From: a virus
IMG/VR virus record: IMGVR_UViG_3300042560_001600
Span: 1-22,490 of that record
Reading direction: 5' to 3' (one strand)
Length of the DNA: 22,490 nucleotides
Of the stretch, positions 3,429 to 19,461 are shown piece after piece (positions within the stretch are counted from its first letter, which is position 1; each line of letters starts with the position of its first letter). The notes beneath the pieces were generated by a model. The model did no database searches and was not told the DNA's origin. It was given only the letters and a program-made list of their open reading frames with translations. The translations under genes and the position numbers were made by a program.

Positions 3429-4298
3429 ATGGCTCGGACAATTACGGAAATATACGACGCGCTTATCTCGGAAAAAGAGAACCTTGACGCCCTGAGCGGC
3501 CTGGTTCCGGCGCCCGATAATCACCAAACATTTTTACAAGACCTCACCTCGACGAGCAAGGTCGCAATTTGGCGCCTTTTCCTTTGGATTGTTGCCGTTG
3601 CAATATGGGCTCACGAAACCCTTTTCGATCGTTATGAGGCAAAAATTATCGACTTAAAATATAAATTGATCACTCACACCCCGCTTTGGTGGCAACAACG
3701 AGCTCTCGAGTTTCAATTCGGTTACACCCTGACTTGGAACGGCGCTCAATTTGTTTACACAACAATCGACGAGGTCGCGAAAATCGTGAAACGCTCGGCG
3801 GTCGTTGTTTCCCAAGGCGTCGTGAGAATAAAGGTCGCCAAGCTCGACGGCGGCGGTTTGCCGGTACCCCTTTCGGGTCCCGAACTTACCGCTTTCACCG
3901 CTTTCGCAAACGAACAAGCCCCGGCCGGTATTAACGTCATTGTAATATCGGCCGACGCCGACCTTTTAAAACTTGGTTACCTTGTTTATTACGACCCGCT
4001 CGTTTTGGCCCCCGACGGCTCTCTTTTGACGAGCCCCGCCGTTTTCCCCGTCGAGGACGCAATCAACGGTTACATTCAAAACTTACCGTTTAACGGCGTT
4101 TTAAACCTCACCGCTCTCACCGACGCAATTCAACAGGCTCTCGGGGTTGTTGACCCGGTAATTCAATCGGCTCAAGCGAAATACGGCCTCACGGCTTACG
4201 TCGACGTTGTTGATAATTACACCTCATACGCCGGTCATATGAAAGTCGACCCGAGCTTTCCTTTGAGCGGCTCAATAACTTATCAAATTGCACCGTAA
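3429..4298 (+). CDS. Baseplate wedge protein, gpJ-like
   Basis: The 289-residue protein begins with MARTITEIYDALISEKENL, resembling the 'I...l...K.n...L.gL' start of Bacteroidota J-like proteins. It has a hydrophobic segment near 47-60 (IWRLFLWIVAVAIW) that is probably buried helix rather than a transmembrane span. The second half alternates strands and helices, including VFPVEDAINGYIQNLPFNGV and a closing strand SGSITYQIAP. The family (Mu gp47 / P2 gpJ / T4 gp6 type) forms the ring of wedge dimers that opens when the sheath contracts. The gene begins 3 bases after the fibre stop in a TAAAAATG-type junction and is followed by the gpI-like gene, the standard J-I order. Confidence 0.7.
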   Translation: MARTITEIYDALISEKENLDALSGLVPAPDNHQTFLQDLTSTSKVAIWRLFLWIVAVAIWAHETLFDRYEAKIIDLKYKLITHTPLWWQQRALEFQFGYTLTWNGAQFVYTTIDEVAKIVKRSAVVVSQGVVRIKVAKLDGGGLPVPLSGPELTAFTAFANEQAPAGINVIVISADADLLKLGYLVYYDPLVLAPDGSLLTSPAVFPVEDAINGYIQNLPFNGVLNLTALTDAIQQALGVVDPVIQSAQAKYGLTAYVDVVDNYTSYAGHMKVDPSFPLSGSITYQIAP

Positions 4299-6477: not shown

Positions 6478-6966
6478 ATGGCTCTCAATTGGCTAAAAGA
6501 CGTATTTGCCGGTAAGGCAATCGAGGAAACCGGCAAGATTATCGACAACCTTTCGACCTCGTCAGAGGAAAAAGCGAAAGCAAAAAATGAGATCACTCAA
6601 ACCGTTCTCAAGGCGCTCGAGGGCGTCGTAAACGCTCAACGCGACGTTTTACTCGCCGAGCTCGGCGGTTCGAAAATCCAAAGGCTTTGGCGCCCGGTGG
6701 TGATGCTTGCTTTCGCCCTGGTTGTTTTCTTTCATTACTTTATTTACCCGCTTTCGAAATCGTTCAACTCAGGGTTGCCCGAGTTACCCTTGTTAGACTC
6801 AAGATTTTGGGACTTACTCGAGATCGGTCTCGGCGGTTATGTAATCGGTCGCTCGGTCGAAAAGATTGCCGACACGGTCACGAAAAACGCCGACTTGCCC
6901 TTTCTGAGGAAAAAGGAAAGGCGCCAAGCAATGAACGACACGCCGACCGATACACCAACCGACTAA
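6478..6966 (+). CDS. Holin, 3TM/GTA-type
   Basis: The 162-residue protein resembles the 'holin of 3TMs' family (PF11351 type). It has an amphipathic N-terminus, a lysine/glutamate-rich helix (about 25-62), then GGSKIQRLWRPVVMLAFALV, where the WRP motif enters the first membrane span (about 71-90). A second hydrophobic segment (FWDLLEIGLGGYVIGRSVEK) follows at about 110-129. The tail is basic and ends in a short repeat, TPTDTPTD. Holins permeabilise the inner membrane to time release of the endolysin, whose gene ends two bases upstream. The order membrane protein, endolysin, holin is consistent across this cassette. A shared terminator follows at once, so this is the last gene of the late transcript. 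Confidence 0.75.
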   Translation: MALNWLKDVFAGKAIEETGKIIDNLSTSSEEKAKAKNEITQTVLKALEGVVNAQRDVLLAELGGSKIQRLWRPVVMLAFALVVFFHYFIYPLSKSFNSGLPELPLLDSRFWDLLEIGLGGYVIGRSVEKIADTVTKNADLPFLRKKERRQAMNDTPTDTPTD

Positions 6967-15260: not shown

Positions 15261-17567
15261 ATGACAAAAGTCACTTTTTACGATAATATTCGCCAGGCGA
15301 AAAACGGGGTCGATATAGAGCTCGACGCGATAATGACGTCAATACATATTGGCGAATGGAAAAACCAGGTCGAAAAGGTCCGGTCGGCGGCCGACAAAAA
15401 AGAACGCGACGGGCTCAAAAAGAAACTCTTGCCGTACTTTACCGGCTCGGGCACCTTTGGCGTCAGGAATAAAAACAACCTCAAAGAGCACAACGGTCGT
15501 ATCATTATCGACGTCGACGGTGTTGACGATATCAACGAGGTAAAGTCTCGCGTTGGCGCCGACCCTTTCCTCGAGTATTGTTTTACCTCGTGCTCAGGCA
15601 ATGGGCTCGCCCTGGTCTTTCGTATTGACCCAGGAAAACACGACCAAAGTTTCGACGCCCTGGCCGGTTACTTGCGGGCCGAGTACGATATCGAGGTCGA
15701 CGAGCCGGTCAGGGACGTAAGCCGGGCCCGGTTTGTTTCTTATGACCCTGACCTCATTTTCAACCCAAACGCGAGGGTTTTCGAGGTCAAAAGCGGCGAC
15801 CTTTTGGTCAAAATACCAAACGGCAAGGGTATCGGCGGCGGCAATGCTTACGACGTTGAGCGAATAAAACACATTGTCGATAAACATATCAGCGAGGCCG
15901 TTGACGGCCAAAAGCACTACCGAGTTTTAAGAACGGCCGGGCTCATGGGCGGGTTTATTGCCGGGGGTTTGATCAACGAAAGCGAGGGTCGAGATTGGCT
16001 CAGAGAATGCGTTCGGAAATACCTCAACCCCTCAGCTTTCGCCTCTCACTTTAAAACGATCGACGACGGTATCGAGCACGGTAAACGTAAGCCGATCACC
16101 CCCGAGGCCGCCGCTCAGTATGACGAGGACCACAAAAAACACTTTGAGGGTATTCGCAACGTTTACGCTTTCGCTTTCTCTCAAAACCGAGAGGGTCGCC
16201 AATGGGGCGAGGCTGACGTCAAGCAAGTCGGTCTCACTTACGGCGTCGACGGTGATAAGGTGAGAGAGATATTCAAAGAGGTATTTGCCGAAAACGCTGA
16301 CGATTTCGGTATCGCTGAGGCGCCCGAGATCGTTAAGGTCGAAAAGTTTCTCGAGAAAAATTTCGAGTTTTATCACAATGAGGTAACCGGAACGCGAGAG
16401 CTCAGGCCCAGGGGCTCGAGCGGGCACCTGGAAAAAATAAATTACGAAACCGTTTGGCGGTTCCTTTGCCGGAACGGTTTCAAGTTTCCGATCGACAAAG
16501 TCAAGGCGCTCTTGCGCTCGGATTTTGTACCGACTTACAACCCTTTCCTCGCATACTTTGAGAGCTTGCCTCGTTGGTCAGAGGCCGACGGTGATCACAT
16601 TGACAAACTCGCCGGGTATGTAAACACAACTCACAACGAATTTTGGCGGTTGCAATTCAAAAAGGCCCTCGTTCGTTCGATACATTGCGCCCTCGATCAT
16701 TACGTCAACCGTATCGTGATCGTTTTAGTTTCTGAAACCCAGGCGTCGGGTAAGTCGACCTTTATTCGATTTTTGAACCCTTTCGGTCGAGATTACTATA
16801 CCGAGAGCCCTCTCGCCCCTGGTAAAGATACCGAGTTCGCGTTTGCTGAAAATTTTATTTACAACCTTGAGGAACTCTCGAGTTTGACAAATACCGACGT
16901 CAACAGGCTCAAAGCGATAATCTCAAAGAGTTCGATCAAAGAGCGGCGCCCATACGCAACCGACGCCGAATCGTTACCTCGCCGGTGCACCTTTTGGGGC
17001 TCAACCAACAAGCTCGAGTTTCTGACCGACTCGCACAACACCCGTTGGCTTTGTTTTACCGTTGACTCGATAAATTGGGCTTATTCAAACGAAATGGACA
17101 TTCACCAGGTTATGAGCCAGGCTTACGCTCTTTATAAGACACCGAGCTTTGAGCACGAACTCACAACAGACGAGGCCGAAAAGCGAGATTTCATAAACAA
17201 GGGGTTCGAGGTTACCGATCACGAGAAAGAACTCATTGCCCTCAATTTCCGGCGGGCGTCGAAAGAGGAACCGGCGGCCTCGTTCCTGAGCAACTCGGAA
17301 ATTTTCGAGCTACTTTCAGAGGTCTCGCCGGCCGCCAGGCTCAAGCAAACCTTTATTTCAAAGTCAATGGTACAACTCGGGTTTGTTCGGGACGTGAGAA
17401 AGGTAAACGGTCACACCGTTCGGGGCTTTTGGGTGCACGTTTCGAAAAACCAAAACCCGGTGAGGGACCTCGAGAGCGAAAAGCCCCTCGAGATACAAGT
17501 CGGAAAATATAAAGAGCGAGAAAATTCACAAGGTAAACTTTTCGAGGGTGACAACCCGCCGTTTTGA
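15261..17567 (+). CDS. VirE/BT4734-type primase-helicase
   Basis: The 768-residue protein combines an N-terminal BT4734-like domain with a C-terminal virulence-associated E (VirE) type ATPase. In the first, IIIDVDGVDD at 81-90 and TSCSGNGLALVFRID at about 109-123 match the acidic and SxSGxG motifs of primase-polymerase-like domains. In the second, Walker A QASGKST lies at 494-500 and Walker B FIYNLEEL at 532-539. The polar sensor segment CTFWGSTNK (576-584) and an arginine-finger-like NTRWLCF follow. It is expected to prime and unwind DNA at the phage origin. The protein ends GKLFEGDNPPF, again like an SSB C-terminal peptide. The noncoding repeat array at 17584-17867 lies just downstream and could be its binding site. 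Confidence 0.88.
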   Translation: MTKVTFYDNIRQAKNGVDIELDAIMTSIHIGEWKNQVEKVRSAADKKERDGLKKKLLPYFTGSGTFGVRNKNNLKEHNGRIIIDVDGVDDINEVKSRVGADPFLEYCFTSCSGNGLALVFRIDPGKHDQSFDALAGYLRAEYDIEVDEPVRDVSRARFVSYDPDLIFNPNARVFEVKSGDLLVKIPNGKGIGGGNAYDVERIKHIVDKHISEAVDGQKHYRVLRTAGLMGGFIAGGLINESEGRDWLRECVRKYLNPSAFASHFKTIDDGIEHGKRKPITPEAAAQYDEDHKKHFEGIRNVYAFAFSQNREGRQWGEADVKQVGLTYGVDGDKVREIFKEVFAENADDFGIAEAPEIVKVEKFLEKNFEFYHNEVTGTRELRPRGSSGHLEKINYETVWRFLCRNGFKFPIDKVKALLRSDFVPTYNPFLAYFESLPRWSEADGDHIDKLAGYVNTTHNEFWRLQFKKALVRSIHCALDHYVNRIVIVLVSETQASGKSTFIRFLNPFGRDYYTESPLAPGKDTEFAFAENFIYNLEELSSLTNTDVNRLKAIISKSSIKERRPYATDAESLPRRCTFWGSTNKLEFLTDSHNTRWLCFTVDSINWAYSNEMDIHQVMSQAYALYKTPSFEHELTTDEAEKRDFINKGFEVTDHEKELIALNFRRASKEEPAASFLSNSEIFELLSEVSPAARLKQTFISKSMVQLGFVRDVRKVNGHTVRGFWVHVSKNQNPVRDLESEKPLEIQVGKYKERENSQGKLFEGDNPPF

Positions 17568-17583
17568 CCCTCGGGCGTCTGTT

Positions 17584-17867
17584 GGTTACACTTGGCGAGG
17601 CCCTGAGTCTCGCTCGTGTAACCGTATGAGCGTCAGCGAAAAAGGGGTCGTTTTGAGTGGTCCGGTTACACCGGTTACACTTACCCCCTATATTGTTTTT
17701 TTTCTTACTGCACGGGGACCGGCGCCGCTTTGGTCCCTTATAAATATAAACTCTTTCTCAATTTTGGGTTTTAAGTGTAACCGTAACAATGAAACGCCCA
17801 AAAATAAAGAGCTCGAGAGGTTACACTCAAAGTGTAACCGAGGTGTAACTCAAGTGTAACCGTAACC
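17584..17867. repeat. Nine-copy GTGTAACC iteron-like array; candidate origin or operator
   Basis: Positions 17568-17872 hold no convincing gene but carry GTGTAACC or its reverse complement GGTTACAC nine times. Copies on the + strand as GGTTACAC: 17584, 17664, 17673, 17819. As GTGTAACC: 17616, 17775, 17832, 17843 (last base T), 17854. The last three are spaced exactly 11 bases apart, about one helical turn, and those at 17664 and 17673 are nine apart. Three copies extend to GTGTAACCGTA. Between the two clusters lies a T-run (17696-17704), a GGGACC/GGTCCC inverted repeat (17715-17737) and an AT-rich stretch (17738-17765). Iterons plus an AT-rich segment next to the primase gene suggest a replication origin; an operator array for the downstream genes is the alternative. 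Confidence 0.7.
17819..17839. repeat. Perfect inverted repeat within the array
   Basis: GGTTACACT, loop CAA, AGTGTAACC: a 9-bp perfect hairpin formed by two array copies of opposite orientation. There is no T-tract after it, so it is not a terminator; a dimer binding site or cruciform is more likely. Confidence 0.65.
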
Positions 17868-17872
17868 GACAA

Positions 17873-18199
17873 ATGAAAGTCAGCGAGGCAAAAATTCAAG
17901 CCGAAATTGTGGCTTATATGAGAAACGAGCTCAAGGTTCCCCGGGGTTTGTTTTTCGCTATACCCAACGACGGGGCTTTTTCGAATAAGTTTTTATCAAC
18001 CGGCACCGTCTCGGGTATGCCTGACCTTTGTTTTTTGAATGGCAAAACCGCCGTATTTTTTGAAACGAAAACCGACGTCGGCCGGCTCTCAGCAAAACAG
18101 GAACTTGTTCACAAAAATTTGACCGGCGCCGGTTATGAGGTGCACGTTGTTCGTAATCTTGAGGCTTTCAAACAAATAATTCAAATTTACACCCAATGA
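17873..18199 (+). CDS. VRR-NUC domain nuclease
   Basis: The 108-residue protein is a minimal VRR-NUC (PD-D/ExK) nuclease. Glu11 lies in the first helix (KIQAEIVAYM), GMPDLCFL holds Asp51, and AVFFETKTDVGRLSAKQEL provides the E-x-K pair (Glu64, Lys66). A closing strand GYEVHVVRN precedes the last helix. Stand-alone phage VRR-NUC proteins cleave branched DNA such as Holliday junctions or flaps, suiting recombination and packaging of concatemers. It begins six bases after the repeat array, so the array may hold its promoter or operator. Its stop overlaps the next gene's ATG (ATGA at 18196-18199). Confidence 0.88.
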   Translation: MKVSEAKIQAEIVAYMRNELKVPRGLFFAIPNDGAFSNKFLSTGTVSGMPDLCFLNGKTAVFFETKTDVGRLSAKQELVHKNLTGAGYEVHVVRNLEAFKQIIQIYTQ

Positions 18200-19461
18200 A
18201 AAAAACTCTTTTCTCACTCATTGCGGCCCTCTTTGTTGCGGTCGCTTTCTCACAGACAAGCACGACGCCGACCGTGCTCAGAACGCTCGGCTTGCCGCCT
18301 GAGTACGGTATTATCGACGGCTATATCAGCGACTACAAAATAAGCCGTAAGCTCGTGATCACGAAAACCGTCGACAATTCGAAAAGCGTCAAGGTGACCT
18401 CGCCAACGGGTCGCGTGACGTATCAAAACGCGCCGACGACCTGGGGTTATGAGATAACCCAAACCAGGGACGAGCTTACCAACTCGGGGACGTATTTGCC
18501 GAACCTTATCTCGATGAAATTCGGCTCGCCGGCGGTTTACATAAACCCGAACGACGTTTTCGAGATCAAAAAAGACCGAATAAACCCGACAAGCTCGGGC
18601 GGTTGGATTGGTTACGAAACGAACAAAATTCAAGAGTTGCAACCTGGTCTTGTCGTTATTTCGACAATCAACGAGCTCGGTAGCGATAAGAATGTAATAC
18701 CGAGAGTTTTCGTCAAAAGAGTCAACGGCGTCAATCATTATAAAAACCCGGTCGATTACTTGGGCCGTCCTATTGTTGGCGATACTATTTTCAACAACGG
18801 CGTCCCCTCGACCTCGATGAGGGTAAATTACAACAACCGCGTCGTTTCGGTTAGTCAAGTAACCAAAACCTTACAAGGTTCGGGCTCTTGGTCAACAAAT
18901 AACCCGGTTTGGTCCGGCGGTGTTAAGACATACACAACAACCGCCTCGGTTTACGTTCCGGTCGCTGACTTGCCCTCGTTGTTTGCTTACTCGATCGACG
19001 AGCTCACCCAGGAAATGAGGACCGAGACGTATTGCACCGTAATAAGCCAAAACCCGCCGAGAATAACCTCGACCTCGACCGAGATCATTGTCAACGGTAA
19101 CCAATACAAGGGCGTCACTTATTACAATGGTATCGACGCGAGTATAAGTCGGCCAACGGGACAAATTACCTCTTACGGTAAGAGTTACCCCGGCCATGTT
19201 CAACGTTGGTTTTTAAAGCAATGGAACCAAGACGGGACCGTTGCGACCGGTTCGGGTTCTTACGGTCAGGTTTTGACGGTGCAATTTGCCTCGGGTGATG
19301 ATAGCACGATTAACTTGGTCGCCGGGAACTCGAACTCGTACAACTCAGTAACGAAAACGCTCACTTACGACGCCTCGAAACTTAACGAGCTTTGGTACAC
19401 TTTCGAGGAATTACCGGCCCAGGGTAAAAATTGGACCGGTGAGACGATCATAAAACTTTAA
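18196..19461 (+). CDS. Secreted protein of unknown function (421 residues, Sec signal peptide)
   Basis: A standard signal peptide is visible: basic MKKT, hydrophobic core LFSLIAALFVAVAF, probable cleavage after AFS or AFSQ. No lipobox cysteine is present. The mature protein is Ser/Thr/Asn/Tyr-rich and beta-like, with repeated short strands (KLVITKTVDNSKSVKVTS, TTTASVYVPVADLPSLFAYS, TSTSTEIIVNGNQYKGVTYY). It has one cysteine (YCTVIS) and no enzymatic motif recognised. Phage genes with Sec signals that are neither lysis nor superinfection genes are unusual. This one is coupled to the VRR-NUC gene by an ATGA overlap and closed by a hairpin at 19477-19505. It may act in the periplasm or at the cell surface (host exclusion or biofilm change), but function is unknown. 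Confidence 0.75.
   Translation: MKKTLFSLIAALFVAVAFSQTSTTPTVLRTLGLPPEYGIIDGYISDYKISRKLVITKTVDNSKSVKVTSPTGRVTYQNAPTTWGYEITQTRDELTNSGTYLPNLISMKFGSPAVYINPNDVFEIKKDRINPTSSGGWIGYETNKIQELQPGLVVISTINELGSDKNVIPRVFVKRVNGVNHYKNPVDYLGRPIVGDTIFNNGVPSTSMRVNYNNRVVSVSQVTKTLQGSGSWSTNNPVWSGGVKTYTTTASVYVPVADLPSLFAYSIDELTQEMRTETYCTVISQNPPRITSTSTEIIVNGNQYKGVTYYNGIDASISRPTGQITSYGKSYPGHVQRWFLKQWNQDGTVATGSGSYGQVLTVQFASGDDSTINLVAGNSNSYNSVTKTLTYDASKLNELWYTFEELPAQGKNWTGETIIKL

Follow-up and report, generated by a model that had tools for sequence, protein, structure and literature searches.

The stretch of DNA analysed here (the window) is a 22,490-bp contig, an IMG/VR fragment, and carries on its plus strand a gene for a 768-aa primase-helicase (15261-17567; PF08800, E 4e-17; PF05272, E 7e-28). 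The protein, which is our initiator candidate, combines a BT4734/VirE-N prim-pol-like N-terminal domain, a VapE-type AAA+ helicase and a C-terminal winged helix, and the similarity of its N-terminal part to PrimPol type B lies under the cut-off of that family. Next on the same strand comes a VRR-NUC nuclease gene (17873-18199; PF08774, E 4.5e-6), a replication-module neighbour that usually comes next after the putative origin described below. Between this gene and the terminase genes lies a 421-aa protein with a signal-peptide-like start (18196-19461), for which no match was found in Pfam, PHROG or NCBIfam. Further, the window includes a terminase small subunit as well as ORFs resembling a terminase large subunit and tail proteins, and its relatives in the Winoviridae are complete tailed phages. 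With structural and packaging genes present and such relatives, a reading of the window as a phage-inducible chromosomal island (PICI) was rejected in favour of a phage.

An array of iterons fills the 305 bp that separate the end of the primase-helicase gene (17567) from the beginning of the VRR-NUC gene (17873). It consists of eight exact copies of GTGTAACC and one copy with one mismatch (GTGTAACT), lying in both orientations between 17584 and 17861, with the first copy 17 bp past the primase stop. The original prediction of nine copies, eight of them perfect, is thus correct in counts and coordinates. The left cluster consists of exact iterons at 17584-17591 (minus strand) and 17616-17623 (plus strand), followed by an inner pair on the minus strand with its outer member at 17664-17671 and its inner member at 17673-17680, both exact. 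Across the spacer (17681-17774), which is the proposed melting region, the inner right pair on the plus strand (17775-17787) comprises an exact iteron at 17775-17782 and, directly after it, a degenerate GTAAC at 17783-17787 that was absent from the earlier account; a full second right site, 9 bp on, is present in five relatives (L020, L021, L023, L025 and L032). Members of a pair are separated by just 1-2 bases. The array closes with a lone inverted, exact iteron (17819-17826, minus strand) and a terminal direct run of three on the plus strand (17832-17861), for which the 11-base spacing reported earlier holds with starts at 17832, 17843 and 17854, the copy at 17843 being the one with the mismatch.

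A count of the word elsewhere had been proposed as a check, and the word proved rare: the contig holds one exact GTGTAACC outside the array, at 3720 in a tail-gene region. When the contig was shuffled 200 times (order 2), the maximum for any 8-mer was four copies per 305 bp, against the eight observed. A mechanically called 103-aa ORF with a GTG start (17548-17859) overlaps the array, and the underlying DNA, as judged by eye, is not conserved in the relatives.

The other elements that had been described in the gap are all present. The 9-bp hairpin with a CAA loop occupies 17819-17839, with the lone inverted iteron as one arm, and its DNA fold reaches -8 kcal/mol (z -5.3). Within the spacer there are a T-run (17696-17703), a GGGACC/GGTCCC inverted repeat (17715-17737) and an AT-rich stretch (17737-17774), and the 40-mer with the lowest GC content (9/40) is found at 17737. 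As a whole the spacer is only moderately AT-rich (61%), with the GC-rich inverted repeat inside it, and it is spanned by a perfect 12-bp inverted repeat, one arm of which takes in the inner left iteron at 17673-17680 while the other lies at 17772-17783. The GGGACC/GGTCCC repeat was considered as a terminator and rejected, since no T-tract stands behind it and its stability is not above that of shuffles (z -0.75); as a conserved element it was rejected because it is missing from AT-rich relatives. No DnaA box was found near the array, and an Rfam search returned nothing.

For the full AlphaFold2 model of the primase-helicase, the best structural match was the staphylococcal initiator PriRep1 with double-stranded DNA (7PDS; VIA Z 24.8, rmsd 4.5 over 368 residues), followed by NrS-1 (Z 15), the ASFV PrimPol (Z 14) and the SaPI5 primase-helicase (Z 13). 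The winged-helix domain (residues 654-727; 17220-17441, plus strand) was modelled in two AlphaFold predictions with a pLDDT of about 80-93, and is the proposed reader of the repeats. Taken alone, it matched an RFX DNA-binding domain (VIA Z 9.1; DNA complex, 7.0) and the origin-binding domain of phage P4 (1ka8; Z 6.5, rmsd 2.8, 76 residues), where a Z below 8 may be due simply to the arrangement that winged helices have in common. The Z values of these models indicate a common fold, not a common function. The evidence points to the C-terminal winged helix, not the N-terminal domain, as the predicted reader.

Repeat arrays at related primase-helicase loci

A wider search yielded VapE loci, 42 of them viral and 19 chromosomal. 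For repeats, 59 loci were searched de novo, with no preset motif and with the densest cluster of a repeated 7-mer compared with 40 shuffles per locus. The cluster exceeded all 40 shuffles in 38 of the 59 loci. Of these 38 clusters, 32 fell within the interval from -60 to +1300 relative to the VapE stop, against an expectation of 16% (binomial p 3e-20, uncorrected for kinship); such p-values are optimistic because the loci are related. Repeat arrays thus stand at the same place in related primase-helicase loci, a comparison that the original prediction had put forward and that came out in its favour. No cluster above shuffles was found in the remaining 21 of the 59 loci. Weak arrays lie at the expected place, though below the shuffle criterion, in six of them (L029, L034, L035, L043, L044 and L067), others have no array at all, and the most distant VapE lineages may rely on different origins.

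Several loci illustrate how the array accompanies the gene. Three loci with 52% identical proteins (L010-L012) carry an array of the same kind, with the word GTGTAAC, in one case with two genes between primase and array. Flavobacterium phage FPSV-S1 has nine copies of GTGTAAC in the corresponding gap, and pippi8-1 has seven copies of TGGAACA (the reverse of TGTTCCA) there; both of these relatives are complete, and outside the array they have no more than scattered copies of their word. The VRR-NUC gene is not required for the array.

Other loci differ in word or place. Among phages of Gram-positive hosts, arrays of other words occupy the gap between VapE and VRR-NUC, with TGTTGCAG in Paenibacillus phage Bob (L087), TGATGCAACA in Staphylococcus phage 47 (L084) and GGGACAACC in Corynebacterium phage SamW (L089). 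Downstream of the array and VRR-NUC, phages Bob and SamW have a helicase, not packaging genes. In one locus the array, twelve copies of ATGTAAT (L048:2306-2589), occupies the gap ahead of the primase operon, on the 5' side of the primase, instead of following VapE. By the same criteria, no array was found in the gap of about 290 bp behind VapE in the streptococcal satellite phages Javan154 and Javan21. The strongest repeat of L028 (TGAAGAA) lies outside the VapE gap. So does that of L047 (CAGCGGC, sixteen copies, AACAGCGGC-type, 6665-6896), which was set aside as coding, being inside a 311-aa ORF. Cellulophaga phage phi38:2 (L082:4967-5303) has at least twelve AGCTAC/AAGAAGC words in an annotated hypothetical gene, and these are probably coding repeats.

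Across lineages the words differ, including GTGTAAC, ATGTAAC, TGTTCCA, GTTCACA and CTGTTACC, and the order of the sites is kept: a pair of inverted sites is followed by the spacer, which in nearly all relatives measures about 80-95 bp, and then by a pair of direct sites, a single inverted one and a direct run. Counted from the first right-hand site, the inverted pair, whose 9-bp spacing is kept, stands at about -111/-102 to -89/-81 and the right-hand sites at 0 and +8/+9. In most relatives the lone inverted site follows at +42 to +53, and the direct run, which has a site every 10-11 bp, extends from about +57 to +95. The window matches this layout, with its inner left pair close to -111/-102, except for the degenerate second right-hand site. 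Spacer AT content is above the locus mean in nearly all loci, and both arms flanking the spacer change together between lineages. Searching phage genomes with the nucleotide sequence of the array gave no match, as is expected if words and spacers drift.

The history of the word was followed on a tree built from the helicase part only, leaving out the winged helix, with 12 word classes. The tree needs 13 word changes for the 12 states, against at least 18 (mean 22) in 1000 label shuffles, which indicates that word and initiator are inherited together and that the word rarely changes. Lineages with TGTTCCA form one group on the tree, including one row of unknown word. Additionally, GTTCACA and GGCAAC-type words share layout positions within single origins in L042, L043, L044 and L050, and judging from these sequences the mixture looks like a word in transition.

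Starting instead from the motif, we scanned IMG/VR for a triple GTGTAAC or for facing GTTACAT/ATGTAAC pairs and obtained at least 238 stretches. Among the matches listed, the array lay within -25 to +850 of the 3' end of VapE in 32 of the 35 stretches that have this gene, and 170 stretches had at least seven TGTAAC sites per 350 bp. Of the 170 listed arrays, 74 closely followed an ORF of 400 aa or longer (11 expected), and 13 preceded one (11.6 expected). Sampled ORFs ahead of these TGTAAC-type arrays were of D5 type (L138, L133), DUF3987 (L093, L320) or Toprim with AAA_25 (L286), and the DUF3987 primase-helicases of L093 and L320 have a C-terminal HTH. Because the word was chosen beforehand, arrays behind primase-helicases other than VapE are a lead only. 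We regard it as evenly balanced whether short-word iteron arrays behind a primase-helicase are a general, unrecognised origin design of many tailed phages across unrelated helicase families (VapE, D5-type, DUF3987, Toprim-AAA_25), with the fixed layout and drifting words of the VapE loci as a natural series for working out the recognition code between winged helix and iteron.

A putative replication origin and rival explanations

From the sequence comparisons, the region is very probably an iteron-type phage replication origin read by the adjacent primase-helicase. This was also the best guess of the original prediction, and it gains support from the rarity of the word elsewhere and from the arrays kept beside related primase-helicases. 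As to its kind, the candidate is a SaPI/PICI-like iteron origin in a new replicon group, the tailed phages mainly of Bacteroidota.

We propose that the VapE-type primase-helicase would bind the words through its C-terminal winged helix, and that the pairs facing each other across the spacer would position two oppositely oriented helicase assemblies. Remodelling driven by ATP would melt the AT-rich spacer, the helicases would self-load in both orientations, and replication in both directions would start from first primers made by the N-terminal prim-pol domain. The phased run at 10-11 bp and the lone inverted site may be extra nucleation or copy-control sites, and the changing word in a constant layout would reflect coevolution of winged helix and site. 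The GC-skew check was uninformative because skew follows coding direction: neither the window nor FPSV-S1 nor phi12:1 showed a switch where the array lies, and a detrended skew minimum near the array of pippi8-1 was not convincing.

Three other readings of the array were weighed. The inner inverted sites could form a stem-loop or cruciform (arms of 12-20 bp, loop of about 80-90 nt) whose structure, not the words, is recognised by the primase-helicase. In favour of this reading are the perfect inverted repeat across the window spacer and the arms that change together, and ORF904 of plasmid pRN1, with the same three-domain plan, has a stem-loop origin of about 100 nt just 3' of its gene, a model that its authors carry over to similar proteins (PMC4234260). 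A stem-loop has no need, however, of the further copies of the words that lie beyond the inner pair, as single sites and as direct runs in helical phase, and the 131-nt core folds only slightly in excess of shuffles (z -1.95), which makes recognition of structure unlikely here.

That the array is an operator or promoter for the VRR-NUC/secreted-protein/terminase transcript, the alternative originally offered, is suggested by its position immediately ahead of VRR-NUC in the window and in most phage relatives, and by two weak sigma-70-like matches, a consensus from which Bacteroidota promoters differ. This reading has been weakened because the array follows VapE even where VRR-NUC is not nearby: about a dozen array-bearing loci behind VapE have no VRR-NUC found nearby, in phi12:1 other genes lie between the repeats and VRR-NUC, and in Bacteroides phage BF503P2, where VRR-NUC comes directly after VapE, there is no array. 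The words also track the helicase tree, and we consider an operator very improbable. The array may serve as both origin and regulator. The proximity of terminase genes, in the window and in the Winoviridae relatives, would also fit a packaging site (cos or pac) for the terminase small subunit encoded a few genes downstream. We give this reading almost no credence, as the array stays with VapE where its neighbours are non-packaging genes (phi12:1, Paenibacillus phage Bob and chromosomal contigs), and in phi12:1 other genes separate the repeats from the terminase as well. To our knowledge, cos sites are not built as two facing sets with an AT-rich spacer between them. Taken together, the locus comparisons speak more for a cis element belonging to the initiator than for a VRR-NUC operator or a packaging site.

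For most environmental phages the replication origins are unknown. With the array as a marker of where the initiator gene ends, dozens of putative origins could be located here by sequence alone. The constant layout with a changed word is a natural experiment on the coevolution of initiator and origin, and the words predict possible cross-replication between phages, or exploitation by satellites with the same words. No description of these phage origins was found in the open-access literature.

Comparison with known replication systems

The candidate resembles the alpha protein of phage P4 in being a primase-helicase with a C-terminal winged helix, which in P4 binds the origin (1ka8 Z 6.5, a level that, as noted above, may mean no more than the general winged-helix arrangement). 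The P4 type I iteron GGTGAACAG resembles the TGTTCACA word of L043, L044 and L050. P4 needs two separated cis regions (ori1 and crr), whereas the complete relatives FPSV-S1 and pippi8-1 have one array; in these two genomes no second, crr-like array was found, only scattered single copies.

The likeness to pRN1 ORF904 lies in the combination of prim-pol, helicase and winged helix and in the place of the putative origin, as in pRN1 an origin that is essential adjoins the 3' end of the gene (PMC4234260), but the pRN1 origin is a stem-loop and no iteron words were found serving there. In SCCmec, the Cch2 helicase uses its C-terminal domain to bind direct repeats that lie shortly after the operon encoding it (PMC7581432). 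The arrangement of helicase and downstream repeats is shared, with binding known for Cch2 and predicted here, whereas the Cch2 system has only three iterons and a separate CCPol-MP primase.

The closest description is that of the SaPI and PICI islands, which were compared by their published accounts. The SaPI Rep protein reads iterons just downstream of its own gene through its C-terminal domain (PMC7581432), and PICI origins always have two iteron sets around an AT-rich region 3' of rep, an organisation that, according to the same paper, was known from no other bacterial replicon (PMC6092414). The array likewise lies immediately 3' of the initiator gene, with two iteron sets around an AT-rich region. 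Pfam, the 7PDS fold and the model identify a VapE/D5-like AAA+ helicase with a C-terminal winged helix, as in SaPI/PICI initiators; the self-loading of the helicase and the reading of iterons by its C-terminal domain, described for the islands (PMC6092414, PMC7581432), are predicted roles here. Unlike the islands, the replicons here are entire tailed phages, most of them from Bacteroidota; the N-terminal domain of the initiator candidate is of the BT4734/VirE-N prim-pol type, and the origin would have a fixed asymmetric layout, lineage-specific words and usually VRR-NUC as the next gene. An origin organisation described as unique to PICIs would thereby be extended to complete tailed phages.
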